Assembly (NCBI GenBank): GCA_025558095.1
Contig: JAIVFI010000026.1
Location: 62,001-126,000 of the forward strand
Origin: Hyaloraphidium curvatum
Taxonomy: Eukaryota; Monoblepharomycota; Hyaloraphidiomycetes; Hyaloraphidiales; Hyaloraphidiaceae
Length of the DNA: 64,000 bases
Reading direction: 5' to 3'
Positions within the stretch are counted from its first letter, which is position 1; each line of letters opens with the position of its first letter. A program made the translations under genes and the position numbers. The notes below the pieces were generated by a model. It ran no database searches. It was given only the letters and a program-made list of their open reading frames with translations, and was not told where the DNA came from. Positions 33,139-52,092 of the stretch are shown here, one piece after another.

Positions 33139-33282
33139 TCTGCCAGACTACTGATCGTTCTCCGTTTCGCTTCCGTAATTCCTCTGCTAAGTATCCACTT
33201 GATGTCTGCTTCAGATCCGTATGTTGTCTGCTTCAGATCCGCATGTCGTCTGCTTCAGATCCGCATGCGATCCGCTGTCAAT
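33139..33282 (+). repeat. 11-bp phased TCYGCWT array, copy 1
   Basis: Units begin with TC at 33161, 33172, 33183, 33194, 33205, 33216, 33227, 33238, 33249, 33260 and 33271: eleven in a row at exactly 11 bp, with likely decayed units back to 33139. Examples are TCTGCTTCAGA (three times), TCCGTATGTTG and TCCGCATGCGA. It lies upstream of the retrotransposon and 3' of the PIP-box gene. Confidence 0.85.
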
Positions 33283-33354
33283 GCACCTTTGCTCGGGCAG
33301 TACGCGTCCAAGCCTACCTACCCATGCTCCCGCCGCACGTGCCTGTGGTTGTCC

Positions 33355-36300
33355 CTAGAGCCCCGAAAAGGTTCCATTGAACCGGTTCGAACGCTGCGGG
33401 AGACGCTCAGGAGGGTCTGGCTGGGAAAAGTAGTCGGTGATGCTGTTCTGCTGGCCTGTTGGAAGGTGGCAATCAGCGTCCAGTCGCGCGTAGCCAGCGT
33501 ACGCACTGTTTCCGCGTGAATCAGCGTTCTCCTTCCCGCGTCCTCCCTTGTCTGCCATCGACTTGCCTGCCGTCGACTTGACCGCCGGCTTCTTGTTCGC
33601 GGTGGAGCCGGTCTTCTTGGTATTGCGCGGCTTCTTGGTTGTAGCTTGGCCGGAAGGAGAGGGGAGGTTGTCAGCAACTTGACCAGCACCCGAGTTTGCA
33701 ACCTACCAGCGTCAACGGTAGCTCCACGACGGCGTACTCGTGGGCCATGTGACTCGCCCAAGTTTGCGCCGAGCACGGATTCGGAGTCTTCGGCAGAGGA
33801 TTCCTCGCTCTCGTCGGGCGAATCGTTGCTGCTGCTGTCCGAGCGCTCTAGAGAACGGAAGAGGCGCCATCAGTCAAGAACTTGCGATCGGCCGCAGACG
33901 CACGGGTAGCTGGTGATGGACCATCGACCGGGTCATCCGATGCGGCCTGAGATACCAATGCTCGCGGCGAGGAGCTGCGTGGAGGGCTCGGAGAAGGTCC
34001 CCCGCGAATCAGTCGAATGACGTCGTCGGTACTCCGCGGGCTGTTCGCCAGGACCCAAGGAAACAGCTTGATGATGAGCTGCGCGAGGGGTTGGATGGAA
34101 TCAAATGTCGACGACGACGACGCGCCCGATGCCACAGTCCCAGACAGAGAATCCAGCTTGCCGGATTTCGCCAGGTAAACGATTCTGCCGGCCGAAACCC
34201 GGAAATGGTTTACGTCGAGATCGTCTGCTTGCGTGGAACGCGGTGTCATTTATCGGGATTGGTGCGGTGGCGGCACCTACCTCCGTCGATGAAGTTCGAA
34301 ACGAACTCCTCGCGCGAGATGCCAGCGCAAGCCTCCCAGTACAATGGATCCTCCGTTGGCGGATGAGGCTTGGTTTTCGTAGTCTGGTAGACCTTGGCCG
34401 GCGCCACTTCAGCGGCGTCGACTTCGCGGATGTCTGAGTCGGGCTCGCGGGGCAGTGGTGGGGCGCCGGCTGCGGAGATCCCCGAACCAGACGCCACCTT
34501 CACCGGCTTCTGTGAGATCGGCTTCTGCGCGGGCAGCTTCTGCGGGAGGAGCGGGGGCTTGGCGGCTGCTGCGGGTTCCGGCGTGGCTGCTGGCTTTGGT
34601 GCGGCTGCGGTGGCCTTGGGCGCGGTTGCGGGCTTGGACGCGGCTGCTGCGGGCTTGGGCACTGCTGCAGTGGACTTGGGCGCGGCTACTGCGGGCTTGG
34701 GCACGGCTGCGGTGGACTTGGGGGCGCCTGCTGCGGGCTTGGGCACGGCTGCGGTGGACTTGGGGGCGCCTGCTGCGGGCTTGGGCACGGCTGCACTGGC
34801 CTCCCTGGACTTGGGTGCGGCTGCTGCGGGCTTGGGCACGGCTGCTGCTGCGGTGGACTCGGGCGCGGTTGCGTGCTTGCGCACGGGTGCGGGCTTGGCA
34901 ACGGCTGCGGGCTTGGCAACGGCTGCGGGCATGGCGACAGTTGCGGGCTGGGGTGCGGCTTTGGCTAATGACGAGCAATGAGAACGGACGGTGCGTGCCG
35001 ATCGCGTGCTCGCTGCAAGCAAAGACCCACATTTCTTCTTCTCGATCTTCTTGAGGCGCATCTGCTCGTCGCTGTCCAAGCGCGGGGGCGGGAAAGGCGT
35101 ATCCAAAGCCGACGGCTGTGGGTCGCCGTCCACAGCAGGATCCTGCTGCTGGTCCTTCTCCTGGTCCTTGACTGGGAAGCAATTGGTGAGAGGTGCACAC
35201 AGGCTCTGCGGTCACAGCGAAGTCACGCACTTGCCTTCGCCACGCCCCTGCGTTGCGTCGAGTAGATCACTGCCAGGATCCAGGCGTCCTCGTAGAATGC
35301 CAAATACGGGAAGCTCTTGATCATCTGCAGCGAGAACGATCGAATGATCAGTCCGCATCCATATGGCCAAGTCCGCCTGCACTGGGTTCACGTACGTTTC
35401 CGACGTAGGTCTGGAAGCGGTTCTTGTAGAGAACAACCTTCGGCCCCGCGCCGCTGATCTTCATGTGTTTCATTTGTGGAAGATTGCCGTCTTCGTCCCG
35501 CAAGTCATTGAAGAGGTTTCCGATTTCGTCCCGCGAAACCTGCTGCGGTGGCATCAGTCAGAAGACTGCGCAAAGACCGAGCAGCCTCCATCGCATAACG
35601 CACCATCACAGCCTTGATGTTGAAGACGAATGCTGCCTTCTCGTCCTCGTCGAGGCACGCGAAAAACATCCACGCTCCAATTGCAATCCATTGGTCCTTG
35701 CACGGCACATACCCAGTATCAGTGCCGTTCTCTCTGCCGTCTTTGGGCGCAGATCGCGTCTTGTACCGCGGCTTGGCGATGTAGCCCTTCAGCTCGGCCA
35801 AGTCGGGTGTCGGATGGAAAGCTGCAAAGATGTCTTGGATCATGACCAGCGTTTCCCCCTGCTTCTCCGTGTCCTCCTTTGCACTCGCTTTCCGGAGCGT
35901 GAAGAAGTCGGGCCAGATGATTCCCTCGGCGGTGACTGATACGGGGACAGCGACGTCAGCAGTTGTGACAGCGAAAACACGCGGGGTCTCACACTGCGGC
36001 TCCATGCTCGAGGGTGCGTCCTCCACCATTTGGGCGGTGACCACGGCCTGTCTAGCGAACGGATACATGGTTGCGGCGCCGCTGTAGCGCGGTGAGGTGA
36101 AGGGGAGCGGGTCTTGGGAGCCGGCCACGGAATCCGACTCAGAGGAGGGTTTCCCCAGGCTTTCTGAGGACTCGGCGCGATTCCGGTACTCCCAAACGTC
36201 CACAAGCTTGACCATAATATCGAGCGCTTGTTCGGATGCGTGCTGGCCCAGCAGAGCGAATACCTCGTCGAAGGCGGCAAGCGCAGCAGCATGCTGCCCC

Positions 36301-36725
36301 AAAGCGAAGAGCTCTTTGTTTGTGACGAGATCCTCGGTGGCAGAGAAGGCCGCAGGCCAGTCTTCTGAATCAAAAGCTGACTGCAGGAGCTGGATCTTGC
36401 CCACAAGCGGGTCTGCCGGCACCCGTGGGTCCTCCCGGACGAGGGCACCGCAGCACTCCGCGAGATCCGCGAGGACCGTCTGGAGCTCGCTATCAAGAGC
36501 CCGGAAGACCTCGCAAAACGGCAGTGCAAATGCGCTTTGACCACCGAGCGCGAGCTCCGAGCCTCGGGTGAGCTCTGCAAGCTTAGCGGCGTGTGCGGCC
36601 TGTTTGGTGCCCCCGAGACGGATTGCCTTGAGAAGCGCCAAGCAGGGCTGGATCAGCGGCGCATGGGCCGGCGCGCCGCTGACTGCCGACGGCGCGCCGG
36701 AGGACGGTGATCCAGCGGCGGTCAT
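33355..36725 (-). CDS. Multi-exon unknown protein with repeats and a C-terminal PIP box
   Basis: The family is not recognised. Met at 36725 opens a long first exon of helical sequence, including DQWIAIGAWMFFACLDEDEK. Introns (GTGCGT, GTACGT, GTGCGT, GTAGGT and others, with CTGAC branch sites) lead through QVSRDEIGNLFNDLRDEDGN, then MIKSFPYLAFYEDAWILAVI, then a Lys-rich segment, then an exon of Ala/Pro/Lys repeats (34575-34935). Further exons give YWEACAGISREEFVSNFIDG and FDSIQPLAQLIIKLFPWVL. The acidic Ser-rich stretch (SDSSSNDSPDESEESSAEDS) and a Lys-rich stretch precede QQNSITDYFSQ, a canonical PCNA-interacting box (QxxIxxYF), about 27 residues from the stop at 33355. This indicates a nuclear protein acting at replication forks or repair sites. 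Individual intron ends in the 34.9-35.1 kb part are uncertain. Confidence 0.55.
34575..34935 (-). repeat. Coding tandem repeat (Ala/Pro/Lys)
   Basis: Degenerate 36-54 bp units such as GCGGCTGCTGCGGGCTTGGG (plus strand) encode variants of AAAPKSTAAVPKPAAG. The unit is in frame, so copy number can change without breaking the gene at 33355-36725. It resembles histone-H1-like or linker tails. Confidence 0.75.
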
Positions 36726-36892
36726 TCCGGGATATGGATGTGTGGTCGCGCGGACGGTTTGCGCGACTCACGCCAAAGCGCCGCGCGCCAATTCGCCGAA
36801 TTCGGGATCCGTAAGAGGAAGTGCGGGAGGTGAAAGGCGTCCTTTCCGGCCAATCAAGTATGTCTACGTTCATCTCGCTTTGGATAAACGAT

Positions 36893-37000
36893 TCGGGGGC
36901 CAGGTCCGTTTGCTAGCTGCCACTGGTCCACTTTGCATCTGCTTTCAGTCCACATTAGTTCTGTTTCGGTCGGACAAAGGAAAGACCGTCTACTTGCCAT
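36893..37000 (+). repeat. 11-bp phased TCYGCWT array, copy 2
   Basis: Unit starts at 36905, (36916 decayed), 36927, 36938, 36949, 36960 and 36970, that is 11-bp phase, with further likely units at 36893 and 36989. It lies 180-265 bp upstream of the start at 36725 and just 3' of the gene ending at 37021. Confidence 0.8.
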
Positions 37001-37020
37001 TGCACGGTACGAAAAGACAC

Positions 37021-38110
37021 CTAATCATCCTCGTACAAGTTGATCGCACGCGCAAGCGATCGTCCCTCATTCCTCGTTGCTTTCCGTCGCCCGCGAAAGC
37101 TAACAATACTGAGCCCTTTGGCATTTACCACCCGGAACGCCGGCTCCTCGAGGTCGACTTCGAAGCCCGGGAATAGCCAGCTTGTCTCGGCGGTAATTGT
37201 GACCTGGGAAAGGGGTTAGGAAACTTGCCGGGTGAGGCACCAACGCGCTATGACGTACTCGGAAGCAGTGGGTCGCGAATGAATCGTTGAACACGTAGTC
37301 GAGCCCAACCTCTACCTGCACCGGGGTCGCGTCGGGCGGGCGCTCGCGGGTGTCGTACTTGGCGACGAATTCGTTCGCGAGATGTAGAAGTGCGCCAGGG
37401 TATGTGACCATCCCAATCAAAGCGACCTCGGTCTCGTTGATCTCGACGATCTGGAAGTATTCGCGTCAATGCGGAGGTCCGCCGGTGCAAAGCAGGAAAC
37501 CCATAACCTTTTCGATGGTCATATGGTGCGTCAGCACGAGGCGAAAGAAGACTCGCCCGTCCGTCTCCTCGATGTTCGGTAGCCGGACAACGACCTTGGA
37601 TGGCAACGGCGGGTCCACGGGCTTGTCGAACTTGTCGATGGTGTACACGACCTTGCTGCTCGCGTCCAGAGCAACGTGATCGGTGATGTCGAGCGCCGCC
37701 GTCAGGAGCTCCGCCTTCGGGCGCCAAGTTGTCAGTCAAGCGGGCCGGGTCGTGATGCGCGGCCCACGGAGACATGCCTGCGACGGCGTGACAGCCCTTA
37801 TAGCACCACTCAGGGACATCTTCTGTTCCTTGGTCAGTTTCTCAGCGCTCTCCTGATGCGCCACGCGACTGGTCAAGAACGCCAGATCGATAGCAAGTGT
37901 CCCAACCAACCCTTCCGGTGCGCTCGACAACGCCGAAGTTCACCCTCCACGACCGGAGAATGTCCCGTGAGCTGATCCCGTGTGCCGACAGGAGGTGGGC
38001 GTGGAACTGGCTGGTTCCACTGTACCGCGTCTGGCAGCCGACCACGAAGCAAACGTGCTCCTCGACCCCATCTCCATCCCCGACCCCGTCCCCGTTGCCC
38101 CCGTCCCCGT

Positions 38111-38145
<35 letters not shown>

Positions 38146-40118
38146 TCCTTGGCGTCGGGCTTGTCGGGCGTCGCCTTCTTCAAGGCGAAGAACCCGAGCG
38201 GCGATGCATTGATCTGCGGTTTGAGGAGGAGCCGGTACGGGATATCAAGCGACTGCACGTGGGTTTGCAGCTGGTCCGTCTACAACGGAGAACGTCTCCT
38301 GCATGAGCGGTCTTGCCAAAGCGTGCCGGAGGGACGAGGACTTACGGTCGGGTTGAGTTCGAGGAATCTCAAGTTCTTGCCCTTGGCCTTGTGCTTCTTG
38401 GATGCCGGCCCCGGAAAGGGCGCGTACTCGTCGTCTTGGTGTTCATCCTCGGACTGCTCGTGCGTCCGCTTGTCCTTGCCCTTGGCCTTGTCCTTCTTGG
38501 ACGCCGGCTCCGGATCGTGCGCGTGCTCGTCGCCTTGGGGCTTCGGGGCGCTGCCGGCAGACGACACATCTGTCCACCGGACGGTAAATGCTGTTAGATG
38601 CGTCCGTCCTCGGCGCCGTTCGAGGTAAGCCTACCCCGGACACGCGGCTTCTTGGCTTTAGTCTCAAAGGCCCGTCCCCTCCCCCGCCCTCCTTTGCCAC
38701 GGCCCCGCTTCCGCGGCTCTGCCACAGCAGGCCCGCGGAGCTCTTCATCCTCGTCCTCGGAGTCCCCCTCCGGCGGGGGGTCGGGGAGCTGCCCGTCGTC
38801 CTCCGGCGGCGGCTGCGGGGCGACGACCGGGGGCGTCGCGGCGCGCGCCTCGGAGTCCTCCTCCGGCGGGGGGCCGGGGAGCTGCCGGTCGTCATCCAAC
38901 AGCCGCTTCTTGTAGACCTTGATGTGCTGCAAGGAAACGGAGTCAGTGGCCGCCCGTGGCGGTGGACGCTGCCCAGAAAACCACCTCGAAGATGGCCTTC
39001 TGCTGGTCGTCGTCCACCCCCGAAACCACCGTCTCGCCCGACGCCAACTTGCTCACGACGTCTTGCAGCCAAGAGGCCATCTCGGCATCGTCCGTGAGCT
39101 CGAGGAGCTGGCAGCGGAGTCAATCATGGCCCCGCTCCGGTCCAAGGGTCCGTGCGTGGAACACCCACATCCTTGAAAAAGTCCATAACGATGGGGCGCA
39201 CCGGCCCGCCCGCACGGACCACCGGCGCCTTGAAATACCGCTGGCCCCCATACTTTCTGCTGACTATCTCGCGACTATCAGCGGCCTTGTATAGCAGGTC
39301 CAGCTCTTCGATGACTTTGCTGCTGCGCTCCTTCTTGTAGTTGTCGATGTGCTGCAAGGGAAGGTCATTGGCCGCCGCCGGAAGGCACCGCTTACTGAAG
39401 CCCACCTGCGAGATGGCTTTCGCCCTCCGTTCATCCAGACTGCCCAACCGGACTCGCTTGTGCTTGAACTCGGTCTTCATCCATGCCGCGTAAGCCTTGG
39501 TGTCGAAGTCTGTAGTGATTTCGGCGAGCTAGCAGCGAAATCAGTGGTGGCCTAGCTTCGTTGGGGAATCTCGGAGACACCCACGTAGTCGAACAGGCCA
39601 ACGATGTCCGGGTGCGGGCCGCCGCCGGCCGCTTCGGGAACGTCGCAGGGTTCAACTTCTTTGCTAGCGAGCTGCCTCGCCAGCGTCGCTTTTAAGAGGT
39701 CGAGCGCGTTCGCCGGTTCGTCCGCCGGGACGGCCTGATCCTTCGGGTCGTCCTGGCCGCCGGAGGGCTCCTCTGCCGGTCGTGACAAAGGCGTTAGACA
39801 GCGCGCGACGCCGTTGCTGCTGGGCGTGGCTAACCCTCTCTCTGCTTGCCCTTGCCCTTCGTCTTCTTGACCGCGTTGGCCGGCTCCGTCGGCTCGCGCG
39901 GCCCGCCTGACGGGTCCTCTGCCGGTCGTGACAAGGCGTTAGACGGCGCGCAACGCCGTTGTTGGCCGTGGCTTACCCTCCCGAGGATTGGACTTGGCCT
40001 TCTTCTGCTTGGGCGCGTTCGCCTTGACCGCGAGCGACGCGTTCGCATGCGGCTTGGACTTGGCTTTTCGACTGGGCGACGTGGGGGCCGGTTGGTCTGC
40101 GCACCCGTATAGACGCAT
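37021..40118 (-). CDS. Multi-exon unknown nuclear-type protein with duplicated exons and a C2H2-like finger
   Basis: No known family. It starts MRLYGCADQPAPTSP at 40118, then basic stretches (KQKKAKSNPRE). Two exons, each beginning EDPSGG or EEPSGG, come from a tandem exon-plus-intron duplication. Next come two related modules, each split by an intron before HI: LDERRAKAISQ|HIDNYKKE and VDDDQQKAIFE|HIKVYKKR. An acidic Pro-rich segment (PPEEDSEAR..., PPEDDGQLPDPPPEG) and GKGGRGRGR follow. An intron at about 38567-38631 (GTAGGC...TCTAAC...GACAG) joins this to SKKDKAKGK and SKKHKAKGK repeats, a (DG)n tract and a finger-like CFVVGCQTRYSGTSQFHAHLLSAHG. The last exon ends VTITAETSWLFPGFEVDLEE...NLYEDD, stop 37021. 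The path between about 37930 and 37690 is unresolved. Confidence 0.5.
38087..38150 (+). repeat. CCCCGT hexanucleotide microsatellite in coding DNA
   Basis: About six perfect or near-perfect CCCCGT units, followed by CGTCCT variants. On the minus strand they encode an Asp-Gly run within the protein at 37021-40118. The unit is in frame, so slippage changes tract length without a frameshift. Confidence 0.8.
39765..39985 (-). repeat. Tandem duplication of an exon with its intron
   Basis: Two copies, about 39770-39840 and 39917-39982, of a roughly 70-bp block spanning intron plus exon start. On the plus strand both contain CCTCTGCCGGTCGTGACAA and GGCGTTAGAC, then ...CGCGACGCCGTTG... or ...CGCAACGCCGTTG.... 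In minus-strand sense each intron ends CACGACCGGCAG followed by AGGA(C/G)CC. This is a recent partial gene duplication. Confidence 0.8.
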
Positions 40119-40437
40119 GTTCAAAGACTGCAGTGGCAGCCGGAGGCGAGTCTCGCGCGCGTACCCGCTGCAGGAGAAGGCACCCGGGCACCCGGGGTGA
40201 CCACGTCCCGGACCCGCGGCCTCGGGCGCCGCTGCGGCGGCGTCGTTGCTTCCGGCGCGGGCGCGGCACCCTTGGGGGGCATCGCGTCGAGCGCGAGCGG
40301 AGGAAGAAGCCGGTTGCGGGAAAGAAGCCGGTTGCGGGAAAGAAGCAGAATGGAAAGGGAACGAAAAGGGATGAGCAGCGAACGAACGACACATCAAATT
40401 CTTAAGGTCGGGTTCTCGAGACGTACCATCTGGGGCC
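40119..40437. other. Divergent spacer with an 18-bp tandem duplication
   Basis: This lies between the starts of the minus-strand unknown gene and the Ulp1-like gene. CCGGTTGCGGGAAAGAAG occurs twice in tandem (about 40310-40345). Unlike the other island spacers, no 11-bp TCYGC array was seen here. Confidence 0.6.
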
Positions 40438-41340
40438 ATGGCGAACTTCCGGTGGAACGAACCCTGGGATCGGGGACTAGGTGCCGACGAAAGGGGCGCA
40501 GTGACTGGATTCGTTTTCACGAAGGTAACCCGGGAGCCTGGGGTTTCGGAGCTCGTGCGGCCCCTCGAGCCCGAGACCTGGCTAGGCGACGAAGCCTACC
40601 AACGGTGGCTCGAGCGCAGGGCCCAGTACTTTCCCGGAGTGGTGTTTCTCGACGGGCAGTTGACCCGTTTTGCCGTCGACATCTCCGCGGGGAACCCCGG
40701 CAACGCTTACCAAGCGTGGCGGAAGGTGGGCGTCGAGGGATACGTCCGCCAGAACATGCGCGCGAAGGGATACGAGCACGGCGTCGGCCGCGAAGAGAAG
40801 CATGTGCGCAGCGAAACGCGCTTCGCCATTTCACGACGCTGCTGGATGTTCCTCGCGCCGCTCTTTGTCAAGGAAAGGTCCCATTGGATCTTTGTCGCGT
40901 CGATGGCCCACTTCTTCGACCCAACTGCCGGCACGGGACGAGTGGGCACCTTCACGTTCGCTTTGGATCTCCTCTCGCGGTCTGGTTCACGGGCAGGGGT
41001 ACTTCGGGATGCCAGAGGCGTCGAACAGGTGGTGCACTCGATCCTCCGCATCGAGGGCTACGAGGTGGCGAAGGAGGAATCGTACTTGGACATTGATTTG
41101 GACGTCGGCGACGCCAAGCAGCTCGACGGGTCTGCATGCATGGTGTTTGCTATGGCCCACGTCGAGCTGTTCGCATCGCTCACCTTGGAAGGAGGAGGGC
41201 CCCACACTTGGGGTCCGTGGAATGCAGCAATCGTTCAAAAGAGACTGGAGGCATGGTACAAAGGCGCTGGGATCAGGCAGAGCGAAGTTCCCAAGTACAG
41301 GCACCATTTGGTAAAGGACATAGTGTTGGACATCATCTGA
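40438..41340 (+). CDS. Ulp1/C48-like cysteine protease
   Basis: A 300-residue, one-exon protein with the pattern of Ulp1-type (SUMO or adenain-like) cysteine peptidases. ETWLGDEAYQRWL (about 46-58) matches the 'WL.DE' entry helix. His149-Trp150 is in RSHWIFVASM, Asp161 in FFDPTAG, Gln228 in KQLDGSACMVF and Cys234 six residues later. The order H, D, Q, C and the spacing fit clan CE; the usual Q-x-N-x-x-D-C-G is degenerate (QLDGSACM). The substrate could be SUMO, another ubiquitin-like protein or an element-encoded protein. Ulp1-like proteases are recurrent cargo or domains of CACTA, MULE and KDZ-type DNA transposons, and a Tnp2-type transposase lies 1.3 kb downstream. It is divergent from the gene at 37021-40118. 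Confidence 0.65.
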   Translation: MANFRWNEPWDRGLGADERGAVTGFVFTKVTREPGVSELVRPLEPETWLGDEAYQRWLERRAQYFPGVVFLDGQLTRFAVDISAGNPGNAYQAWRKVGVEGYVRQNMRAKGYEHGVGREEKHVRSETRFAISRRCWMFLAPLFVKERSHWIFVASMAHFFDPTAGTGRVGTFTFALDLLSRSGSRAGVLRDARGVEQVVHSILRIEGYEVAKEESYLDIDLDVGDAKQLDGSACMVFAMAHVELFASLTLEGGGPHTWGPWNAAIVQKRLEAWYKGAGIRQSEVPKYRHHLVKDIVLDII

Positions 41341-41687
41341 GGTAGGCTCCCCCTTGGCACCTCTGCAATCGTCTTGCTGATTCGCAGGAGGGTGTGCCCA
41401 ATCCGGGAGATGCTTTCGGTTGGCTACCATGGTCGTCCGGCTTCTGGTGGCAGCGTTTACCGAACCGATGCGGGGCAACGCGACGTGGAATCACAGCAGA
41501 TGGCGCCCAGAACACGTCCGACGAAACTTGTTGGGTAATCCTATTTGTACAGGGAGTATAACCAACAATGTAGCTTAGCTTGCTTTGCCTATGCCGATGG
41601 CCACCGTGCGTGGCTCGCCAACCTGTCCGTCGATGCGGGTGCTGCGCCCCAACGAGGGCTGGCGTGCCCGGCGCAGCGGGTTCCCTT
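41341..41687. other. Spacer without a recognised feature
   Basis: AT-richer DNA after the Ulp1-like gene. A short AT-rich stretch around 41530-41590 lacks any clear repeat. Nothing is called. Confidence 0.45.
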
Positions 41688-42378
41688 TCAATCGAGGCTG
41701 CTTGCCGCAGAAGATGAGATCCGATCGATTCCATCGGAAGAGGGGAGGTACGGCGGGGCGCCGGTGCCAAAGGCTCTCGCGCCTCGTGTGGAGCGGCTTC
41801 CGCGCCCCCAACGCGCCTGCCGTTGATCGTCCCGCGTTCTTTTCGCCTCCTCCTTTGCCCTGCGAGCATCCAGCTCGCGGTGGAACGAGGGCGAGTTCCG
41901 CCACGGGGAGCCCACCTCTCCGGGGGAGGACGTGTCCAGTTCGTGGGTGTCTTCGTAGGCCGAATCACCCGGGGACGCGCCGGGTCCCGCGTCGTCGTCG
42001 ACCGCTGCCAGATCCAGCCATCGGCTCACCGTGGCCACCGCCCGGCCGCGTTGATCAGAGCGCCGCGGCCCGGCCGGTCCTGGAACTGCCGCTTTCGAGC
42101 CGCGGCTGCCGTTGCTTGCCGGTCGGGCGGCCTCCTTGGGGGCGTTGCCACCAAGCGCAGCAGACGTTCGGCGCAAGTCGGGAAAATTACGCCAGCTCAA
42201 GGTCCGTCTGCGTGTCGTCGGGAGCCGTCTCCTTTTTCCTGAGCCGCCGTTTCGACGGCGGTTCCGCGTCCTCTTCGTCGCCGGAACGCGCGCCCGCGGT
42301 CTTGCCAGCGGCTTCGCGGCGGAGCCGGCGACGCTCGGCCGGGCCGACCGCCGCCGGTGACGAGGTTTCGGATGACAT
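41688..42378 (-). CDS. Possible small basic protein gene (uncertain)
   Basis: Two minus-strand frames look protein-like. MSSETSSPAAVGPAERR from 42378 carries a nuclear-signal-like PPSKRRLRKK. A second frame, ending SSAASSLD at 41688, is acidic/Ser-rich with charged helices (RELDARRAKEEAKRTRDDQR). They would need an intron near 42185 (GTAATT donor), but I could not find a phase-consistent acceptor. It may be one spliced gene, a decayed gene, or a 63-residue ORF alone. The 11-bp array lies just upstream of it. Confidence 0.3.
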
Positions 42379-42398
42379 AGTTTTCCAGAGAACCAGAG

Positions 42399-42515
42399 TC
42401 TGTTTGGCGAGCCCCGCGAAGACGCGATCCGCTGCGATACCGTTTTGTGTCCGCATGGAGTCCGCTTTTGATCTGCTCACTATCTACTTGCCATCCGCTT
42501 TGCTTCCCAATCCCA
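42399..42515 (+). repeat. 11-bp phased TCYGCWT array, copy 3
   Basis: Anchor T positions are 42428, 42438, 42450, 42461, 42472, 42483, 42494 and 42505 (spacing 10, 12, 11, 11, 11, 11, 11), plus a unit at 42399. Units include TCCGCATGGAG, TCCGCTTTTGA and TCTGCTCACTA. It is 108-214 bp upstream of the transposase start and also upstream of the possible minus-strand gene. Confidence 0.85.
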
Positions 42516-42612
42516 TAACCTACCAGTTTGAGGCTAGGTTTCACATTCTCGTCGGCCGGCGCTAGTTTTCTCGAGGCACACAATCCGACCCCTTTTCTGT
42601 GCGCTGATACCG

Positions 42613-45600
42613 ATGAGAAGCCGGTGCCCTTGTTCAGGCTGTCGTGGCACGCATGCCCATCTGAATAGAACCATCAAGAAACACGTGAACGAGAGAGGCG
42701 TGTGCCACGAGTGGGGCTCCCTCGCGGACGGGGATCCGGCCCTTGGTGATCTCCTGGCGACGCACTTCTCGGCGAAAGCGTGGTTTTCACGGAAACACTA
42801 TACCAACGATTCCGCCGAGCGAAGAGTCCTCACAGCCTCTACGTGGGGTGCATCTGCTGATGACTTTGCACCGTCGCCCCCCGGCGAGGTCGCCGACCCT
42901 TCTCCCATCCATGATCCGGCGCAAAAGGCTCCGGACGTGACCACGCCTGCGGGCCAGACAAACGAGACGGCTGGTTCCGACTTTGCGGATAGTGGATCCG
43001 AGACGTCTGCTTCGGACTCTGCCTTCGGATCTGCACATGAATCGGAATCCGACTCTGCACTGGAATCAGACTCAGACACGGAACCCGACGCGGAACTGAA
43101 CGATTTCCACGAGTCGGATTTCGCAGAATCGGACTACGGAAGCGATGATGAGGCCTTTCTTCAAGGAATTGAGGAATCCCAGGAGGACTGGAGGAAGGCA
43201 AACGAAGAGGAGCATCGGCGGCGGATGGAACACCGGAAAAGGGAGGAGGAAGCAGCGGCGGACAATGCCAAGGACTTTTTCTTCTCTTTCCAGGGCAGCG
43301 GTTCCATCCAGACGGCTCACCCGAGCTTCAAGTCCGACGAGCACGTAATACGATTTCTCACCGCGGAACGGCTTCACGTGGAATACAAAGGGACAGAAGA
43401 CCATTACACCGACTTCATGACCAACCTTCTCGGTGATGCATCGGTGTCCCGCTACATGGCCGGGGTGCGGCTTGCCGCACTCTCGGGGGGTTATGCTTAC
43501 GAGAGTGAGACCACTCTCTCTACCGTGCGTGATCGGCTCCTTATTGCGCTACCCACAGGACATCATGTTTGCCGCAACGGATGCGTACTTTTCCATGGCA
43601 TTGACAGCAGGAGTGGCATGGACTTGGCCAAGGCCGTTGCCTGCCCCATCTGCCAAGCTGCCCGATACCTCAGGCATCCTTCCGACCGCCGTGGAGACAC
43701 TGGTACAGCACACAAGTACGCTTTCTACTTCCCCATAATCCCCGTCCTGCGAGCCATGTTCGGCCACTTGGGCCGGGCTAAAGAACTCAAATGGTGGTAC
43801 GGCTATTTCACCGAGATGTTGGGGCGGTTGCAGCACGAGATCGAACAGCAGCAGGCTGCTGCCGAGCGAGAGCAGGAACATGCGCGTCAGGGGGGAAAAC
43901 AAGGGAAGGGAAAGCAGAAACTGCAGCCGCAGCCGCAGTCACAGCCGTCACAGCAGCGCCCAGCAGCAGGCCGTGTCGTTGGGGACGTATTTGACGGAAC
44001 GGAGTTCCAGCGACTGATCGACGAAGGATTCGCGAATGACGACTCTGGAAATCTCGATCCCCGCACCGTCTGGCTCGAGATCAGCGGTGATCCCGCCGAA
44101 ATGTTCAAGCAGTGAGTTCATCCTACCATCCAATCCGTGTGGATGGACTGATCCGACCACAATAACAGGGCGAAGAACACGTTCGAACCCGTGCTTGCCA
44201 AGATATCCAACCTCCCGCCCGGCATCCGAACTGTTGATGGTGGTCAGCACCTCTGCATGCTCCTCCCCGGTGGGATGAAGTGGGATCACGAGTCGGTCAT
44301 CCGCCCGCTGCGGGAGGAGCTGCAGCAGCTGGCAGAAGGTGTGCCCGGGGTCAAGGATGCGTCCGACGGGGTCACTTTTACTATGCGCGGCCACGCGTAC
44401 ATGGTGCAAGCAGATGCGCCGCACATCAAGAAGATGGCAGGGTCTCGGGGACACAACGCGACCGTATCTTGTATGTTCTGTGGATTGGTTGGGTACGGGC
44501 GGTGCCCGTGCCTTCACCTGCCGGACGTGGCAAACGTGAAGCTGAGTGAGGCCTACGGGAAGCGTGGAGGCCGGATCGACTACGACCCGGAGAACCTTCC
44601 GATGTACACTGTCGAGACGTATGCTTCGACGTACGCCCGACTTGAGGCTCCCAAAGCGGCAATTGACAAGATCCAGAAGGAAACGGGTGCGTGCACCGGC
44701 GGCGGCGAGATAAGCTCGCGTACCTGACTTGGCGCTCGCCTCCTGCTGCTGCTGGTACCGCAGGTATCATGCGTCGCTCCGTGTTCGACATTTGCTTCTC
44801 GAATCAGGGTCTCCCGGTCACGCGCACTGCGTTCGGCGCGATGCGGCTTCCGCACTGCCTCGCGTACGACCGGATGCACCAGGTTGCTGGCAACGTCCAA
44901 CGCCTTTACCAGAGAACACTGAAGCCGAAGATGGGGAAGAAAGAATGGAAAAAGTTCGCGAAGGAGATGGCCAAGAAGCACAAGATCAACGTCAAACCCA
45001 CCCACATCACGGATTCCTCGCACCACTGCCAAGGGATGACGACGCAGGAGTACAACACGGCCGTCAACTCCAGGGACACTCCATCCGCCAGATGCCGTCT
45101 GACACCTCGTCAGATCGAGGAGATGGACCATGATATCGTGGCTTCGGCGCTTCTCCTCCCAAGCTGTTTCGGGCGCGTTCCCCGCAGCTTGGTCCACGAG
45201 AATGGGTACAAGACGGAGGAGTGGTTCACCCTCTTGAAACTGTACTATGTTCCCCTCCTCCATGATCGCCTGCTCCCCGAGGACTTTGAGGGCATCGCGT
45301 GGCTTGTTCGAATTGGACAGCTCACGGCGAAGCACCGCGTGGATACCGGTCTTTTGCACGAGGCTTGCTTAAGATACGTTCTCTGGCGCGAGGGGTGGGT
45401 GCGTGATTCTCAGCATTTAGTATTACCAGTAACACGCACCCGCCGCCCCCACCTCGCTCTGCTGCTCAGGACGTGCTATGATCGATCCGAGGAGGTCATG
45501 GGTGACGTCTGCACGTACAATCTGCACACGTTCCTGCATTTTGCGGAGCGGGTCGATTGTAACGGGGCTCCGTGGGCAACGTCCCAATTCCAAACAGAGC

Positions 45601-46605
45601 GAAAGATCAACGTTTTGCAACAATTGGTCGACAACCGCCGGGCGCCCATAGCGGACATGGCCGGCAAAGTTCAGGGCCAAACTCGGCTTGAGCTGGTGAA
45701 GATGGACCCTCGAATGGAGACAGCCTTCGTCGACCAGCGAAAGCTCCAGCGGAAACAGTTCGGAAAGATCTACACCGGCACAGGCTTCGAATTGCGATGG
45801 CCGTACCGGGTACACCGGGAAGAAGAGGTTGGTTGGTTGCAATAACCGTTTTCTGGGGCACTAAGCATCCAAACAACGTCCCCGCACACGGCGGTAGGGC
45901 CTCAAAAAGGTTCAGATCAAAGCGCTCCTCCGATACTACCGAAAGGGTGGCACCTGGGGGGGGTATCTTGCCAAAGACGACATCTCCCGCGCCTTTCGCC
46001 AGTTTGCCAGGCTTGAACTACCGGGCAAGGCGACTTTTGGCTCGGTGATGTCTTCGGGGAAGCCCGCGAGACGGCTCCCTTTGGTGTCTCACCGGGTCCA
46101 GGCAATCAACCGGACACGGCGCCTCAACCACATGGCTGCGTTCGACGATCCGGATCATCCTGGAGTCGAACGTTTTGGTTTCGTGCATTACTACATCGTG
46201 CACGAAGTGCAGGGCGAGGAGCATGCCTTTGCGTGGATGTCGGTCATCAAGGCGGCCGGTTTCGACGCGGCGGCGGGGTGGGGAATCAAATACTTCCAGT
46301 TTCAGAGAGACGGCTCTCACATGGAACATATGTTAGTGCCTGTCACCTGCCTGGACCGCCTCGTCGGGCTTTTGAGGCGCTGGGTAGGTGACCCGACCGT
46401 GGCTTCGACCGCGTTGGAGCCCACCGACTGGGGTTCGGACCCGATGGCCAGGGAATGGCATTACATTCTCGACCTCAACTGGATGATTGATCCCCGGGAT
46501 TATGTGAGTCCAGAAGCTCGTGCAAGGGAGAAGGTTCTGGGTGCGGCGAGGAAACAAAAGACTAGGGAACTCAAAAAGCGGATCAAGAAGCCGGATTCGG
46601 TGTGA
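42613..46605 (+). CDS. Tnp2/Transposase_21-like DNA transposase (CACTA-like)
   Basis: Four exons: 42613-44111, 44169-44686, 44764-45827 and 45916-46605. All are GT-AG and in frame, giving about 1,256 residues without internal stops. The N-terminus is a Cys/His module (CPCSGCRGTHAHLNRTIKKH), then an acidic region. The core includes ESVIRPLREELQQLAEGV and, about 40 residues on, KKMAGSRGHNATVSCMFCGL, the arrangement of Transposase_21 ('L.PL..EL..LW.GV ... KG..ACP.C'). Later blocks are LPHCLAYDRMHQVAGNVQ, SALLLPSCFGRVP, and YNLHTFLHFAERVDCNGAPW with TSQFQTERKINVLQQLV. The last exon carries VERFGFVHYYIV, CLDRLVGLL and HYILDLNWMIDPRDY, like the C-terminal part of Tnp2 proteins. I could not locate terminal inverted repeats. 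Intact coding suggests recent activity. Confidence 0.75.
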
Positions 46606-46655
46606 CGATGTGCTGCCGAACGCCTATGGCGGAATCTATATCGCAGCTACGTTGC

Positions 46656-46730
46656 TCCGCTATCCGTCTGACTGTAGTCCGTTTTGTCCTAGTTGTGTCT
46701 GTTTGCGATCTGCATGTAGTCCGCTTTCAC
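46656..46730 (+). repeat. 11-bp phased TCYGCWT array, copy 4
   Basis: Anchor T positions are 46656, 46667, 46678, (46687), 46698, 46709 and 46720, almost all 11 bp apart. Units include TCTGTTTGCGA, TCTGCATGTAG and TCCGCTTTCAC. It lies between the Tnp2 stop and the hAT start, about 100-165 bp upstream of the latter. Confidence 0.8.
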
Positions 46731-46819
46731 TCCTAACCCTGTTTTCACTGATCGCCTCACTCCCTTGGAGCCCATCGACCAGCAGTGTAGGTCTCTTCGC
46801 CACCCAACAAAACGGTTCA

Positions 46820-48791
46820 ATGATTACTTCGGTGGACGGTGCCGGCGAAGAAGGCGGCGCGGCTGCGGCGCCCCCCCTTGGCCCAACGCGACAAACGAGT
46901 CAGGTCGACGAATTCGGCGAGGAAGCACACACAGGCAGCAGCGGCGACACGGCTGTCGCATCCCCGAAACCCTGCGGTATTGCACAGTCCCGCGCCGCCG
47001 GAACCAAGGAGGATCTCGTTAAAGTGCGGCCGATTCTCATCCCGTTCCATTCGAAAGTCTGACAACAATGTGCAACAGGCGCTGCTCTCGCTGGCCGTGT
47101 CGATGGGGCGCCGGCTGTCGGATGTCGCGCCGGACAATGGAGCCGTGCGTGGCCTCATCCGCGCTGTCTGCCAGGACGTTCCTCTGCCGACTGTGGCGGA
47201 TCTGGTCAGCGAGGTTCATCGGCGCGTGGCCAGCCTGCTCAAGACCTGCTCCGGCCATCTCCTGGTCTCGTTCGTCGCCGATGACGGTACGGCAATGGAC
47301 GTCAAAGACCCAACGTCTCTCAAGCTCGTGGTCGAGTTTTTGTCCGAGGATTGGAAGCTTTTTCAGGCTGTCGTTGGCGAGCGAATCGCTCGCAACGGGA
47401 GCGTTTCGTTCGACATGATCAAGAGCATGATTGTGGACGAGCCCCTGGCCAGGCACGTGGCGCTGCTTGAGAACGAAGTAGGACACGCGCCCTGCTGGGG
47501 CAACTCCCGCATTGTGTCACCGACAAACGACCCGCGTGCAGATCGTAACAATTACAATGGCGATCCCCCCTGGCTTCCTCAGTGGTCAGCAGACCCCACG
47601 CCTCGAGCATGACCGCTTCGAGCTTCTCGGCTACGGAATCAAGCCGTGGCTCTTCCGGGTGCGGGAGCTCGTCCGTAAAGCGCAAAAGGCCATGCCCTAC
47701 CCGACCTCCTCCCTACCGCCACCAGCGACTATGTTTCATCTCCGGTGCGTGAGGGCGCGCGGTATGCGTGCATGTCGATGCTTGCTGACTCGATTTTCGT
47801 TTCACCACTTGCTCGCCAAGGCAAGCGCTCGTCAACGCTTGGGAAGCTGTGCAAGATTACGATCTGCGGGACACTCCGAGGGACGACGGTCGACGCCTAC
47901 ATCAACGCGGGCTCATTGCAGCGGCACTGATTGACTTACGAGTCCTATTGCATGATGCCCAAGTGGATCTGATTGACCGGACCAAGAGTCGCGGCCTTGC
48001 AGACCTCCCAAAACTGCAGCTGGAGCAAGCTGCCGAGCTCCTAAGTACGGCAGACAAGGAACTCAAGTCTGCAATTGAATCGAACGAGCGTTATGTCCTC
48101 CTTTGTATGGGTGAGCTTCCAGCAGCGTTGTCGCGACTGGTCCATTCGAGGGCTCCTATTGATCTTGCGGTCCTGGGCAGTGCTTAACCCGAACATGAGG
48201 CTCACGTGGCTGTCCCGAAAGATTGCCGCCGTCCAAGACGCCTTAAAGCATGCCGTCATCCGGTCGCAACTGGAATCGTACAAGAAGACCGCCATGGAAA
48301 TGCTCATTTCAGCAGCAAGCGCGATCACAAACGACGCCGCTCCCGTCGCCACCGCGCGTCCGTACACCAAGCCGCGCGCTTCACTTAGGCATAACCATCT
48401 CCAAGATATCGAGGATTTCGCGGTACAGGCTCGTCGGCAGAACCACGGCAAGAGCGAGGCCGTGGTCTACATCAACGAGTCGGTCAGTGCCAACCGCGAG
48501 GAACTGATCGACATCCCCGGCTATTGGAAGGTAGGACGCGTAGTGTTTCGCCAGAGGGCAGCCTGGGAAGGCCGATTGACGCACCCTTTGTCACAGGAAA
48601 ACCGCGAGCGATTCCCGGAGCTCTACGGCATCGCGAGAGAGGTGTTCTCGTTCCCTTTGGAGGCCGGCCTTGATCATTACATAGCCCTCGACCAGTGGGT
48701 GGCAGGCGGTACATATGACGACGAGCAAGCACGGATGGGGCACCTTAGGTGCTGGCTGGGCATTACGGAGACCGGCGAAATGTTTTCTTAA
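46820..48791 (+). CDS. hAT-family transposase, multi-exon, possibly degenerate
   Basis: From the Met at 46820, exon 1 ends at 47023. A 55-nt intron (GTGCGG...TCTGAC...CAACAG) joins it to ALLSLAVSMGRRLSDVAPDNG, then LPTVADLVSEVHRRVASLL and SFVADDGTAMDVK, matching the hAT N-terminal core. Coding continues in shifted frames, implying two or more introns between 47480 and 47830. Later parts are ERYVLLCMGELPAALSRLV and LNPNMRLTWLSRKI (hAT 'LDPR.K' region). The C-terminal dimerisation block is DIPGYWKVGRVVF, RFPELYGIAREVFSFPLEAG and HLRCWLG. The DDE residues cannot be placed with confidence, and the middle joins are unresolved, so the gene may be intact but intron-rich or partly decayed. Confidence 0.6.
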
Positions 48792-48925
48792 CAATTCGTA
48801 CTTTGCGTCGCCCTCGCCTTCCGAATCGGTTCTTTGGAACCTCCACGGGTCTCTAAGAGACACCTCCAAAGGCACGTGCACAGAGAGGTGGTTAGTTTGG
48901 ACGCCGGCGACCTAACGCCAAGTAG

Positions 48926-48992
48926 ATGTGATGCAGAGTTGATGCGGACAGAAAGCGGACTGCATGCGGAAGGCAAGCAGACTTTAGGAAGA
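48926..48992 (-). repeat. 11-bp phased TCYGCWT array, copy 5 (minus orientation)
   Basis: On the minus strand unit starts are 48992, 48981, 48970, 48959, 48948, 48937 and 48926, exactly 11 bp apart. Units include TCTGCTTGCCT, TCCGCATGCAG, TCCGCTTTCTG and TCCGCATCAAC. It sits between two convergent gene ends (48791 and 48998) and is the only copy not upstream of a start codon. Confidence 0.85.
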
Positions 48993-48997
48993 AGAAC

Positions 48998-50164
48998 CTA
49001 TACATCGATCTTCTTCGCCTTCCCTAACAACCTCGCGGATGTTGCGCGAGTCGGCTGCTTGGGCCGGTGCCCCTTCAGAAAGCCGGAGATCACTCTTCGC
49101 GATTCCGCGTCGGACTCCGGAACCTCGCTCTCGCGGATCCAGATCCGCTTCGGTTTGCGGGTGCGCCGTCCACTGCGTGCCCATCCTTCGTACGCGCTCT
49201 GACGCGTGACGTTGAGCTCCAGGCCGAACCCGTCACCAGGGTCCCGGACTCGGTGTACCTTCACCACCGGTGTCGGCAACCTGCACGGCGTGGGCTTCTC
49301 GTCAAGTTTGTGTTCCAGCCGCGCGACCATGGAGTTCCCAATGAAACCGGGCGACGCATAGTTAAGCAGAACCTCGTCATGGTAGGAAATGTTGCGCGAG
49401 GCGACCACTCGGGCCCCCCAAAGGTTCTCCACCTTGACCGGCTTGCCCAAAAACACCGCATTGCGCTTCTGATGGTCCTGTGCATAATTGGCGAAGCGCA
49501 GGATGGAACCTCGATTGGCCCCGTCAACCGAAAATCCCAAAGCTTGAATGAAAAGAACATAGTCCCCGCATGAGCTCTTCGCACACGTGGTTCCTTTGTA
49601 GGTGCCCAGCACGTCGCCCTTGCGGAACGCGGTGCCTGCGGCAGACCGCCCACAAAGGGACCGCTGCAAGATCAGCTGCGCCTCGGCGGCACTAGTGCGC
49701 CACGTGGCCGTCGGTGAGCTGTCGAAGTGCGCCATTGGGCACAACGGACAGGCGACGTAAAGTCCGAATCCGATGCCTCCGGCTTCGTTGACAGCAGGCA
49801 ACGCAACCAGGCGGGGGTCGTCCGCAGGTCCCTGCAGCACAGCGCGCGGGTCCCGGCCACCAGGAGCGCGGGCGCAACGGGGCAATTGGTGGGCCGGAGA
49901 CGCTCGATGGCCATCCCAGGCCTCCGGCGTCTGCGTGTCCGTCGAAGCCCCATTTTCCGTGTCGCTGGCAGTCCCGTCGGCCGAGACCACGGGCGGCGAG
50001 ATGCCCCGTGCGACCACGCGGCGGGCGCGCTGCTGAAGGCGCTTCTTTTCCAGCACCTGGCGGCGCTCCTCGGCCCGCCGTGCCCGCAGCACTCGTGAGC
50101 GCTCAGTTGAACTGTTCAGCGTCTTTGCCATGGTCGCTGTTTCCCTGGGGCTCTGCATGGGCAT
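48998..50164 (-). CDS. SET-domain protein
   Basis: Predicted lysine methyltransferase fold. From the Met at 50164 (the frame continues to 50251) it has about 388 residues in one exon. A basic N-terminal helix (RRAEERRQVLEKKRLQQRAR) and a disordered stretch come first. The SET region (about 180-310) contains FRKGDVLGTYKG, GDYVLFIQALGFSVDG, ILRFANYAQDHQKRNAVFLG and ISYHDEVLLNYAS. RFANYA replaces the canonical RFxNHS, and LNYA supplies the usual late Tyr. The missing His in the NHS motif leaves activity uncertain. The C-terminus is basic (RSGRRTRKPKR; GKAKKI), as in chromatin proteins. SET genes are carried by some fungal and plant mobile elements, and its position among transposases is notable. 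Confidence 0.65.
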   Translation of the reverse strand: MPMQSPRETATMAKTLNSSTERSRVLRARRAEERRQVLEKKRLQQRARRVVARGISPPVVSADGTASDTENGASTDTQTPEAWDGHRASPAHQLPRCARAPGGRDPRAVLQGPADDPRLVALPAVNEAGGIGFGLYVACPLCPMAHFDSSPTATWRTSAAEAQLILQRSLCGRSAAGTAFRKGDVLGTYKGTTCAKSSCGDYVLFIQALGFSVDGANRGSILRFANYAQDHQKRNAVFLGKPVKVENLWGARVVASRNISYHDEVLLNYASPGFIGNSMVARLEHKLDEKPTPCRLPTPVVKVHRVRDPGDGFGLELNVTRQSAYEGWARSGRRTRKPKRIWIRESEVPESDAESRRVISGFLKGHRPKQPTRATSARLLGKAKKIDV

Positions 50165-50285
50165 GGGAGGTGTTTGTGTTTTTTCCAAAACTGCGCCGAC
50201 CCGTCCCGCACAGTTGTGAGTCCACTGAAGCCCATGATTACACTCTTTCATGTGTCGGCCAGATGTCGGAACGAATGGCGAGCTA

Positions 50286-50410
50286 TCGTTTGTGTCACAC
50301 TATTGATCTGCATGACTTCCTGAGGGTTTCTGTTCGTTGTCGACCTTGTTGTCTGTATGCGATCCGGAAAGATTCTGTTTCGCGATCCGCACATGTTTGC
50401 TTTCTATCAC
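50286..50410 (+). repeat. 11-bp phased TCYGCWT array, copy 6
   Basis: Anchor T positions are 50286, 50307, 50318, 50329, 50340, 50352, 50363, 50374, 50386 and 50407, in steps of 11-12 bp or about two units. Units include TCTGTATGCGA, TCCGGAAAGAT and TCTGTTTCGCGA. It is about 120-245 bp upstream of the SET gene start. Confidence 0.7.
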
Positions 50411-50459
50411 AACTGCGCTTGGAAAACACTACGTTGCACCCAATCACATGCCGACAACT

Positions 50460-51536
50460 TCAAACAGTGCGATTCCGCAAACGCGCCGGAAGAGTCACCT
50501 GCCACCACTGAGTTTCGAGGTCACGCTGCTTCAAAGCTCGGTAGGATAGCGTCTTGACCGCGAACCCTAACACCTCCACGCGCTTGAGCTTCCGCAAAGA
50601 CATAATGCCAGGAAGCACGTGGCTGTCCGGAATCTCGTGCATGGGACTGCGGCATGACACGATTATTGTCTGGATCTCCACGTACTCCACGTTCCTGGGA
50701 AGCGTAAACCTCGCGTAGTTGTCAGACTCCATGGTCGGCAACGCGAGCGACCACACGTGTTTCTGCACCCGTAGTAGCTTCCGGCAGCCCGAGATCCCCG
50801 AAAGTGCGAGCCTCCGAAGCTCCGTCCCCGAATCGCCACAAGCGTTGCAGACCTGCTTGAAAACGCGCGGCCCGGCCTTCAGCGTCGTCAAGCGACGCGC
50901 CACTTCAGTGGGCATTTCACAAGCAAGCTCTCTCTCCGATGTTTGGAGACCCCACGACCCGAGACCGTGGAAGAGCGCCTTCTCAACGCATCCCAGAACC
51001 CCTTTCAGGACTTTAGCGCCCCCGGTTACGCCAATCTCCAGGTACGACAAGCGGGAGACAACCACTTCCAACATCCCGAGGGACGGAAGGAAGGCGAGGT
51101 CGACGTTGGTGAGGGTGAGCTGCCTTTGGTGCTCCGCGGGGTCGTGCCTTGTGAGGAGAAGGCGCAGCTCTCGCGCGCGAAATGAGGGATTAAGGCCGAT
51201 GGCGAGGCTGTGGAGGTGCGGCAGGGCTATCTTGAGGAACTGAAGCTCAGGGTGAAGGGCGGCGGGGTCGTTGCCAAAAGGAACTTGGGGATCCAGTGTC
51301 AAGTGCCTCGTGACCACATGAATAAGTTCCTCCGTGCCTTCGTGCACCACCGAATCGAAGTAGTCGGCAGCTGTGCGCGAGCTTGGGGGTCGGACGCTCC
51401 GCAAGGCCACGTCCAAAACCGCGGCGCGGATCTCCTTGCCCGTGCTCGCGAGCGCGACTCGCGCATTAGGGTCCAGGAAACGCGCGATTTCCTTCAGAAC
51501 CTCCGGTGGGCAGCTCCGAAGAGCGCGTCCCGACAT
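50460..51536 (-). CDS. F-box protein with leucine-rich-like C-terminal half
   Basis: Predicted SCF ubiquitin-ligase adaptor. The Met at 51536 (MSGRALRSCPPEVLKEIARF) begins an F-box-like helix set at once (PPEVLKEIARFLDPNARVAL, ASTGKEIRAAVLD). The rest (about 300 residues) is Leu-rich with irregular repeat-like segments (LRRLALSGISGCRKLLRV; VEYVEIQTIIVSCRS), suggestive of a degenerate LRR array for substrate choice. The frame is open upstream to 51686, but that part overlaps the 11-bp array. It is one exon of about 358 residues. Whether it belongs to a mobile element or a resident expanded F-box family is open. Confidence 0.6.
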   Translation of the reverse strand: MSGRALRSCPPEVLKEIARFLDPNARVALASTGKEIRAAVLDVALRSVRPPSSRTAADYFDSVVHEGTEELIHVVTRHLTLDPQVPFGNDPAALHPELQFLKIALPHLHSLAIGLNPSFRARELRLLLTRHDPAEHQRQLTLTNVDLAFLPSLGMLEVVVSRLSYLEIGVTGGAKVLKGVLGCVEKALFHGLGSWGLQTSERELACEMPTEVARRLTTLKAGPRVFKQVCNACGDSGTELRRLALSGISGCRKLLRVQKHVWSLALPTMESDNYARFTLPRNVEYVEIQTIIVSCRSPMHEIPDSHVLPGIMSLRKLKRVEVLGFAVKTLSYRALKQRDLETQWWQVTLPARLRNRTV

Positions 51537-51602
51537 GGTCACGGTGGGCAAGATCCGGGACCCGAGAAACGGTTCGGACCTCGGCTGATCGCCGCCTTGC
51601 GA

Positions 51603-51735
51603 TCGGACGAGCGGATCCATGCAGACGGGCGAGGATGCCCGAGCGGATAGAAAACGGACTAAAAAGGGATATGAAACAGATTTCAAACGAGTTCAAAACG
51701 GATGTCAATGAGATGGCGAACGGATTGAATGCGCA
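51603..51735 (-). repeat. 11-bp phased TCYGCWT array, copy 7 (minus orientation)
   Basis: On the minus strand unit starts are near 51724, 51713, 51702, 51691, 51680, 51669, 51658 and 51647, each 11 bp apart. Weaker units continue to about 51603 and up to 51735. Examples are TCCGTTTTGAA, TCTGTTTCATA, TCCGTTTTCTA and TCCGCTCGGGC. It is upstream of the F-box gene and about 100 bp before a CCCATG array. Confidence 0.85.
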
Positions 51736-52088: not shown

Positions 52089-52092
52089 GAGG

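Follow-up and report, generated by a model that had tools for sequence, protein, structure and literature searches.

Eight 11-bp phased motif arrays in the spacers of a 19-kb transposon of Hyaloraphidium curvatum, putative docking platforms for a sequence-specific regulator

Introduction

Some DNA transposons are bound by proteins that recognise short motifs repeated in the noncoding DNA of the element itself. According to the accessible parts of two papers on VANDAL elements, VANC21 and VANC6 of Arabidopsis bind to repeated motifs within noncoding parts of the element that encodes them and remove silencing (PMC5735166, PMC10398659). TNPA of Spm/En likewise binds motif repeats in its element's own noncoding DNA, as the accessible part of PMC2613891 describes. 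In fungi, transposons whose transposases are related to the one described below can also contain TET/JBP genes, which the accessible part of PMC12730594 takes to be anti-silencing. Here we describe a 19-kb transposon in a stretch of 64,000 nucleotides (hereafter the window) from Hyaloraphidium curvatum, a fungus belonging to Monoblepharomycota (GenBank assembly GCA_025558095.1, contig JAIVFI010000026.1, positions 62,001 to 126,000, forward strand). The spacers between the predicted genes of this element carry arrays of a degenerate motif, TCYGYWT, repeated every 11 bp. The reading that we favour over all others, at about even odds, is that a sequence-specific regulator docks on these arrays and activates or un-silences the element's genes together; the element itself would probably encode it.

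Results

Eight arrays with an 11-bp phase

The arrays were scored with a 7-position weight matrix summed at a stride of 11, each array being left out of its own matrix (leave-one-out). The transposon contains eight TCYGYWT arrays at 11-bp steps (Table 1): seven that had been reported in a sequence-only reading of the window, and one more at 40328-40404. The phase described there was borne out, with eleven positions from 33161 to 33271 and strict phase in the arrays at 48.9 and 51.7 kb. Seven of the eight arrays score 27-95, against a top score of 19.6 in 60 shuffles of the element. Array A6, at 50.35 kb, is the weakest; because of slips in the array it reaches 19.5 under strict spacing, no better than the best shuffle. 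Elsewhere in the genome the top score was 14.5 over 94 kb (44 kb of flanks from the window and 50 kb from five places), and further non-element stretches gave 15.1 or less, save three loci at 19.5-21.0 that had been picked for holding a chance pair of units. An extra run within the transposase gene scored 15.6, inside the shuffle range.

The gaps between successive exact TCYGYWT units in the arrays are multiples of 11 in 20 of 21 cases, the sole other gap being 20 bp, at 46678-46698. It belongs to A4, which has 4 strict positions (46687-46730) and an earlier run, judged by eye, that is out of phase by this step. Autocorrelation pooled over the eight arrays gave z = 9.2, 10.9 and 7.2 at lags 11, 22 and 33 (7.1, 7.8 and 5.7 when A1 was left out), and was flat at lags 10 and 12; 18 kb of flank gave z = 1.8 at lag 11. 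A motif-free scan for period 11 was unselective, with 11 clusters in the 19-kb element and 40 in 94 kb of control DNA at a loose threshold, and weight is therefore placed on the motif-based tests only.

Conserved cores and random spacers

Sixty in-phase units carry 0.61-1.31 bits of information at positions 1-7, and 0.21, 0.03, 0.01 and 0.14 bits at positions 8-11. In the core, neighbouring units agree at 0.38-0.81; in the spacer they do so at 0.21-0.27, the chance level. As the unit limits were set by the core score, the core figures are somewhat inflated and the spacer figures unaffected; A6 contributed one unit to this comparison, one base out of register. The spacers are thus random even between adjacent units, which argues against recent slippage and agrees with the selection on spacing that had been proposed from the letters. 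We reject slippage, or a minisatellite origin, as a sufficient account of the arrays on this difference in identity between core and spacer. On sequence grounds, a core that is kept, a spacer that is random and a phase that is held together are the signature of repeated protein sites, not of duplicated DNA. Rfam gave zero matches across 32-53 kb, and the four of the eight arrays that were folded behaved much like shuffled sequence (z -1.15 to 0.13), so that the signal probably lies in the DNA rather than in an RNA.

Restriction to one element

We searched the genome (31.9 Mb in 55 contigs) with patterns of phased units. All 39 matches to a three-unit pattern with at most one mismatch fall in the three copies of the element. 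With at most two mismatches, 69 of 74 matches do so, and the 5 elsewhere equal the 5 returned by a reversed control. An exact two-unit pattern gave 24 of 27 matches in the copies and 3 elsewhere (control, 2). Exact single TCYGYWT units are more widespread, 34 of the 83 in the window lying outside the element. Arrays equally common elsewhere in the genome, the outcome that the sequence-only reading had named as fatal to its proposal, were therefore not observed. Its view that they are confined to mobile DNA holds, with the amendment that they belong to one transposon family and not to an assorted island of mobile elements. A platform shared by mobile genes across the island or the genome is rejected, there being zero three-unit phased matches (at most one mismatch) beyond the element. 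In the open-access literature, covered in part, no account of such arrays or of any nuclear transposon in Hyaloraphidium came to light.

Placement relative to genes

Counted from predicted genes X, A, B, C, E, F, G and H and the two ends of the element, there are nine spacers. On these gene models, arrays occupy eight of them, the empty one lying between A and X. Six of the eight arrays precede a predicted start, at distances of 0-373 bp. A8 stands between divergent genes, about 210 bp from the start of B (about 40118) and 34 bp from that of C (40438). Gene H has two possible starts, of which A7 overlaps the first (ATG 51620) and stands 79 bp upstream of the second (51536). A1 is flanked by the left end of the element and by the 3' side of gene X, a weak prediction. 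The orientation of the arrays is independent of gene direction.

An upstream position had also been claimed for A1, on the strength of a start codon at 33139. This codon belongs to an open reading frame (ORF) at 32345-33139 on the minus strand, which crosses the transposon end into a retrotransposon and has no coding signal in the part scored; an upstream position is therefore not established for A1. A promoter or activator platform, one of the roles suggested at the outset, agrees with the position of six of the eight arrays.

A different motif at the two ends

The ends of the transposon are filled by another motif, ATGGG, with 19 units in the first 360 bp and 13 inverted units in the last 253 bp. 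These make up 19 of the 30 plus-strand and 13 of the 29 minus-strand occurrences in the element. ATGGG spacings cluster near multiples of about 10.5 bp (P = 0.0038 when phase was tested jointly across periods 9-13; P = 0.00025 with gaps longer than 13 bp). Among the periods listed, the best is 10.8 at the left end and 10.5 at the right, and neither end is sharp at the period of the other, which weakens the claim of one ATGGG register common to both. The end repeats are a better candidate for a role in transposition than the TCYGCWT arrays, and because ATGGG fills the ends, end-binding and the internal arrays look like separate functions.

Boundaries, copies and flanks

The left end of the transposon, at 32687, starts CCCTATGAGAAA, and the right boundary, CTCATAGGG (52088), is common to all three copies found in the genome. 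These copies (one in the window and two called C22 and C24) are >99% identical. The exact 12-mer of the terminal inverted repeats (TIR) occurs 4 times in the genome, at both ends of the window copy and at the right ends of C22 and C24. The count of three rests on pattern, TIR and protein searches, which deleted copies lacking those parts may escape; a DNA search with 34000-53500 gave an incomplete list, from which C22 and C24 were missing despite their >99% identity.

The C22 copy reaches to within 135 bases of its contig end, and the C24 copy runs to the contig end. C22 is without the element's first 66 bases, and CCTAA telomere repeats come next. The CCTAA (TTAGG) repeats are joined directly within the left subterminal repeats (L011, C22:706340-706474), which would fit a break in the element that was healed by telomere addition. 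The left flanks are a retrotransposon (window), a telomere (C22) and a contig end (C24), so that none of the copies offers an original left flank from which to read a target site duplication; the right flank and its empty counterpart were found (L024). The retrotransposon is of the non-LTR (long terminal repeat) type, and its 5' end adjoins the first base of the transposon. At least 17 near-complete copies, 99-100% identical, were among the matches listed, and because of these many near-identical copies it was probably active recently. The right-flank DNA resembles, by eye, the pol region of an LTR retrotransposon; it is repeated elsewhere and is uninterrupted in L024. Further to the right are a 150-bp tandem repeat in five copies (53897-54663) and a single ORF (55194-57398) in which a methyltransferase domain is joined to that of a pyridoxal-dependent decarboxylase.

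Between C22 and the window copy there are 59 differences, 7 of them in arrays, which make up 717 of 19,402 bp (about 3.7% of the element). By inspection, two of the seven fall in spacers, one at the degenerate third position of an A6 unit, one in an off-consensus A7 unit and one at a core position of an outer A7 unit; the others are 1-base insertions in A1 and A4. C24 has two array differences, one at the same A6 position and one at a core position of an already off-consensus A7 unit. No array unit was gained or lost between copies (A1 was compared in two copies, as the C24 sequence begins at 35265). Of the 27 differences between C24 and the window copy, 17 are 1-base indels at 37.3-40.2 kb (L013, L014). 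They lie 2-5 kb from the contig end and are absent from C22; they are therefore probably assembly errors and were not used.

Genes of the element

Besides a CACTA/EnSpm-like transposase, about seven further genes are predicted in the transposon (Table 1). The frame scoring behind these models was trained on the element's own longest ORFs and is mildly circular.

The core of the gene E product matches Transposase_21 (tnp2, PF02992) with E 1.4e-6 and 28.1 bits, just below the curated cut-off of 28.6, and its N-terminus is Transpos_assoc-like (16.8 bits, below the curated cut-off of 27.7). Transpos_assoc followed by tnp2 is the expected domain order. The spliced protein contains CMFC and LHTFLH, read by eye against the description in the accessible part of PMC12730594. 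The public gene model agrees on the first two introns of gene E, but lacks almost the whole of exon 1 and runs E and F together. The C-terminus of the gene F product matches the hAT dimerisation domain (PF05699, E 3.6e-5, 23.9 bits, cut-off 21.4), so that a tnp2-type transposon carries a hAT-type domain, and two different transposase-like genes share one element.

Genes A, B and X yielded no domain with confidence in the pieces scanned against Pfam and NCBIfam. When scanned with Pfam, the main ORFs of the element gave the tnp2-type, hAT-like, weak SET and weak F-box matches and no Mutator transposase; the proteins scanned also gave no match to TET/JBP. Gene C had zero profile matches and zero sequence matches in the PDB, and a PDB sequence search with gene G gave nothing. 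Single-sequence structure models of C and G were unusable (mean pLDDT, 32.7 and 37.5).

The one protein match to the transposase is DFJ74DRAFT_771040 of Hyaloraphidium curvatum itself (E up to 0.001, 6527 candidates). A word-based search of the protein collection found no relatives of E, G or C outside this species (for G, among the best 8000 candidates), each query recovering a single protein, either of H. curvatum or from the contigs of this genome, and a search of viral_contigs with the transposase model also found none. Within the genome, E and G are confined to the three copies; H has in addition four weak matches, the best with E 0.011.

Table 1. Coordinates of the transposon, its end repeats, arrays and predicted genes, and the adjoining retrotransposon (window positions)
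Feature	Position	Strand	Description
Whole transposon	32687..52088	.	19,402 bp, 12-bp TIR CCCTATGAGAAA...TTTCTCATAGGG
Left subterminal region	32687..33045	+	19 ATGGG units, mostly ACATGGG, rough helical register
Right subterminal region	51836..52088	-	13 ATGGG units, inverted relative to left end
Array A1	33139..33292	+	14 phased positions, leave-one-out 95.4; upstream of no predicted gene
Array A2	36905..36970	+	6 phased positions, leave-one-out 42.9; 180 bp upstream of gene A (minus)
Array A8	40328..40404	-	5 phased positions by matrix scan, leave-one-out 27.2; missed by sequence-only reading
Array A3	42428..42515	+	8 phased positions, leave-one-out 60.1; 98 bp upstream of transposase gene E
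Array A4	46656..46730	+	leave-one-out 29.3; 373 bp upstream of first in-frame ATG of gene F
Array A5	48916..48992	-	7 phased positions, leave-one-out 57.2; between 3' ends of convergent F and G
Array A6 (50.35 kb)	50352..50410	+	three strict positions, more slipped by eye; 101 bp upstream of gene G
Array A7	51615..51735	-	11 phased positions, leave-one-out 57.5
Gene X	33400..35211	-	weakly predicted, low-complexity PKPAA repeats
Gene A	35505..36725	-	406 aa, no recognised domain
Gene B	37200..40118	-	several exons, tentative limits; C2H2-like segment by eye
Gene C	40438..41340	+	300 aa; Ulp1/C48 cysteine protease-like by eye only
Gene E	42613..46605	+	transposase, 1250 aa, four predicted exons
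Gene F	47103..48791	+	first in-frame ATG 47103; tentative start and introns
Gene G	48998..50251	-	417 aa; weak SET-like match, E 0.19
Gene H	50460..51620	-	weak F-box-like match, E 0.17; possible starts 51620, 51536
Non-LTR retrotransposon	28257-32687		RVT_1, 4.4 kb; 5' end adjoins first base of transposon

Discussion

The arrays, their phase, the contrast between core and spacer, the restriction to one element and the occupation of eight of nine spacers of the predicted gene models are observations. Binding by a protein, its cooperativity, the origin of the binder in the element and the direction of its effect are what we infer from them. The putative regulator would contact TCYGCWT about once per helical turn, so that several copies of it could line up along roughly the same face of the double helix. 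It would act on nearly all of the transposon's genes at once, either turning on their transcription or undoing silencing by the host, and would most likely be encoded by the transposon itself. A bolder version, which we think unlikely as a whole, has two private DNA codes in one element, each based on the helical turn: an element protein would form a rigid multimer with an 11-bp pitch on the arrays in eight of nine spacers, a lattice making the 19-kb element one regulatory unit for coordinated activation or anti-silencing, while the roughly phased end motif would serve transposition.

Several findings count against a regulatory platform of this kind. Neither A1 nor A5 precedes a predicted gene, and gene X is preceded by no array. 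The array period is 11.0 bp, not an exact match to the 10.5 bp of B-DNA. A confident DNA-binding domain is absent from all of the element proteins scanned, and no relative was found in which conservation of the phase could be compared between species. Between copies the arrays differ slightly more than the rest of the element; the differences are too few to show purifying selection, and are neutral to slightly unfavourable to a regulatory role.

The main rival is a transcription factor or chromatin protein of the host, for which the element would have built homotypic clusters, thereby borrowing host activation. A short degenerate 7-mer is typical of such factors, and single exact units do occur outside the element. 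However, zero sites beyond the three copies have three phased units with at most one mismatch, so that phased clusters are not part of host promoter architecture in this genome, and we consider this reading unlikely. The arrays might instead be insulators or nucleosome-positioning DNA that isolate or open genes without gene-specific activation; a chromatin signal had also been among the roles first suggested. Repeated-site insulators exist, for example gypsy Su(Hw), and the filling of eight of nine spacers, including the 3'-3' spacer that holds A5, would suit such a role. A period of 11.0 bp with a specific 7-bp core is unlike the 10-bp periodicity of A/T, and we regard insulation or positioning as quite unlikely.

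Internal and subterminal transposition sites, used in synapsis or end recognition like the TNPA sites of Spm/En, are a further explanation and had been among the roles first suggested. The outermost arrays, A1 and A7, are inverted relative to each other and lie 452 and 353 bp inside the ends, and CACTA elements carry subterminal repeats, according to the accessible part of PMC2613891. Against this, six of the eight arrays are internal and of mixed orientation, and the ends are held by ATGGG. Subterminal transposase binding is therefore disfavoured as the main role of the arrays, and transposition sites of any kind seem quite unlikely to account for them. The arrays could also be old minisatellites, spread across the spacers by duplication and now decaying without function. 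A1 contains three near-identical 22-bp dimers, and A4 and A5 have in common a 37-nt stretch that is 81% complementary; some duplication may thus have happened, and the slightly raised variation of the arrays between copies points the same way. The chance-level identity of neighbouring spacers beside a retained core, and the absence of gain or loss of units among the copies compared, make decay of this kind highly improbable. The putative private platform would have wider consequences: it would become possible to test whether a private trans-factor is a general requirement for large multigene transposons to escape silencing, and the compact array with its protein would be a pair for synthetic use.

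In helical arrangement the arrays recall the parC iterons of bacterial plasmids, the ParR-type partition centromeres, whose direct repeats of about 11 bp are bound side by side in helical register. This likeness is an analogy only; parC iterons are prokaryotic and clustered at one site per plasmid.

Among fungal elements, Plavaka and fungal EnSpm (CMCT clade) have transposases that are related to tnp2 and contain C(2)C and H(3-4)H motifs, features that the gene E product may share. The accessible part of their description does not mention phased arrays, and gives the termini as TGT..ACA or CATCA..TGATG for Plavaka and CAC..GTG for fungal EnSpm (PMC12730594). Termini in the CMCT clade are mostly 5'-CA..TG-3', whereas those of the element here are 5'-CCC..GGG-3'; target site duplications in the clade are 2-5 bp long. 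Spm/En and other CACTA elements, such as the 20.5-kb Tgmt*, are similar in size and probably in their tnp2-type transposase, and, in the accessible part of PMC2613891, carry many short motif copies near their ends, much like the ATGGG repeats. The motifs of Spm/En are subterminal, whereas the TCYGCWT arrays are mostly internal, close to genes and spread over the element; the termini, CCCTATG here, also differ from CACTA.

VANDAL elements are likewise DNA transposons with a short motif repeated in their own noncoding regions and not generally in the genome. They belong to another kingdom and have another transposase, of the Mutator type (MULE), which was not seen in the element's main ORFs. Their motifs accumulate by tandem-repeat formation, and the accessible parts of PMC5735166 and PMC10398659 do not describe units in exact 11-bp phase separated by random spacers; as these texts give no motif spacing, the contrast in spacing with the 11-bp arrays is unproven. 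If the arrays are indeed platforms for a regulator of the element's own, a fungal transposon would have arrived independently at a VANDAL-like private motif code in noncoding DNA, and would have added strict helical phasing to it.

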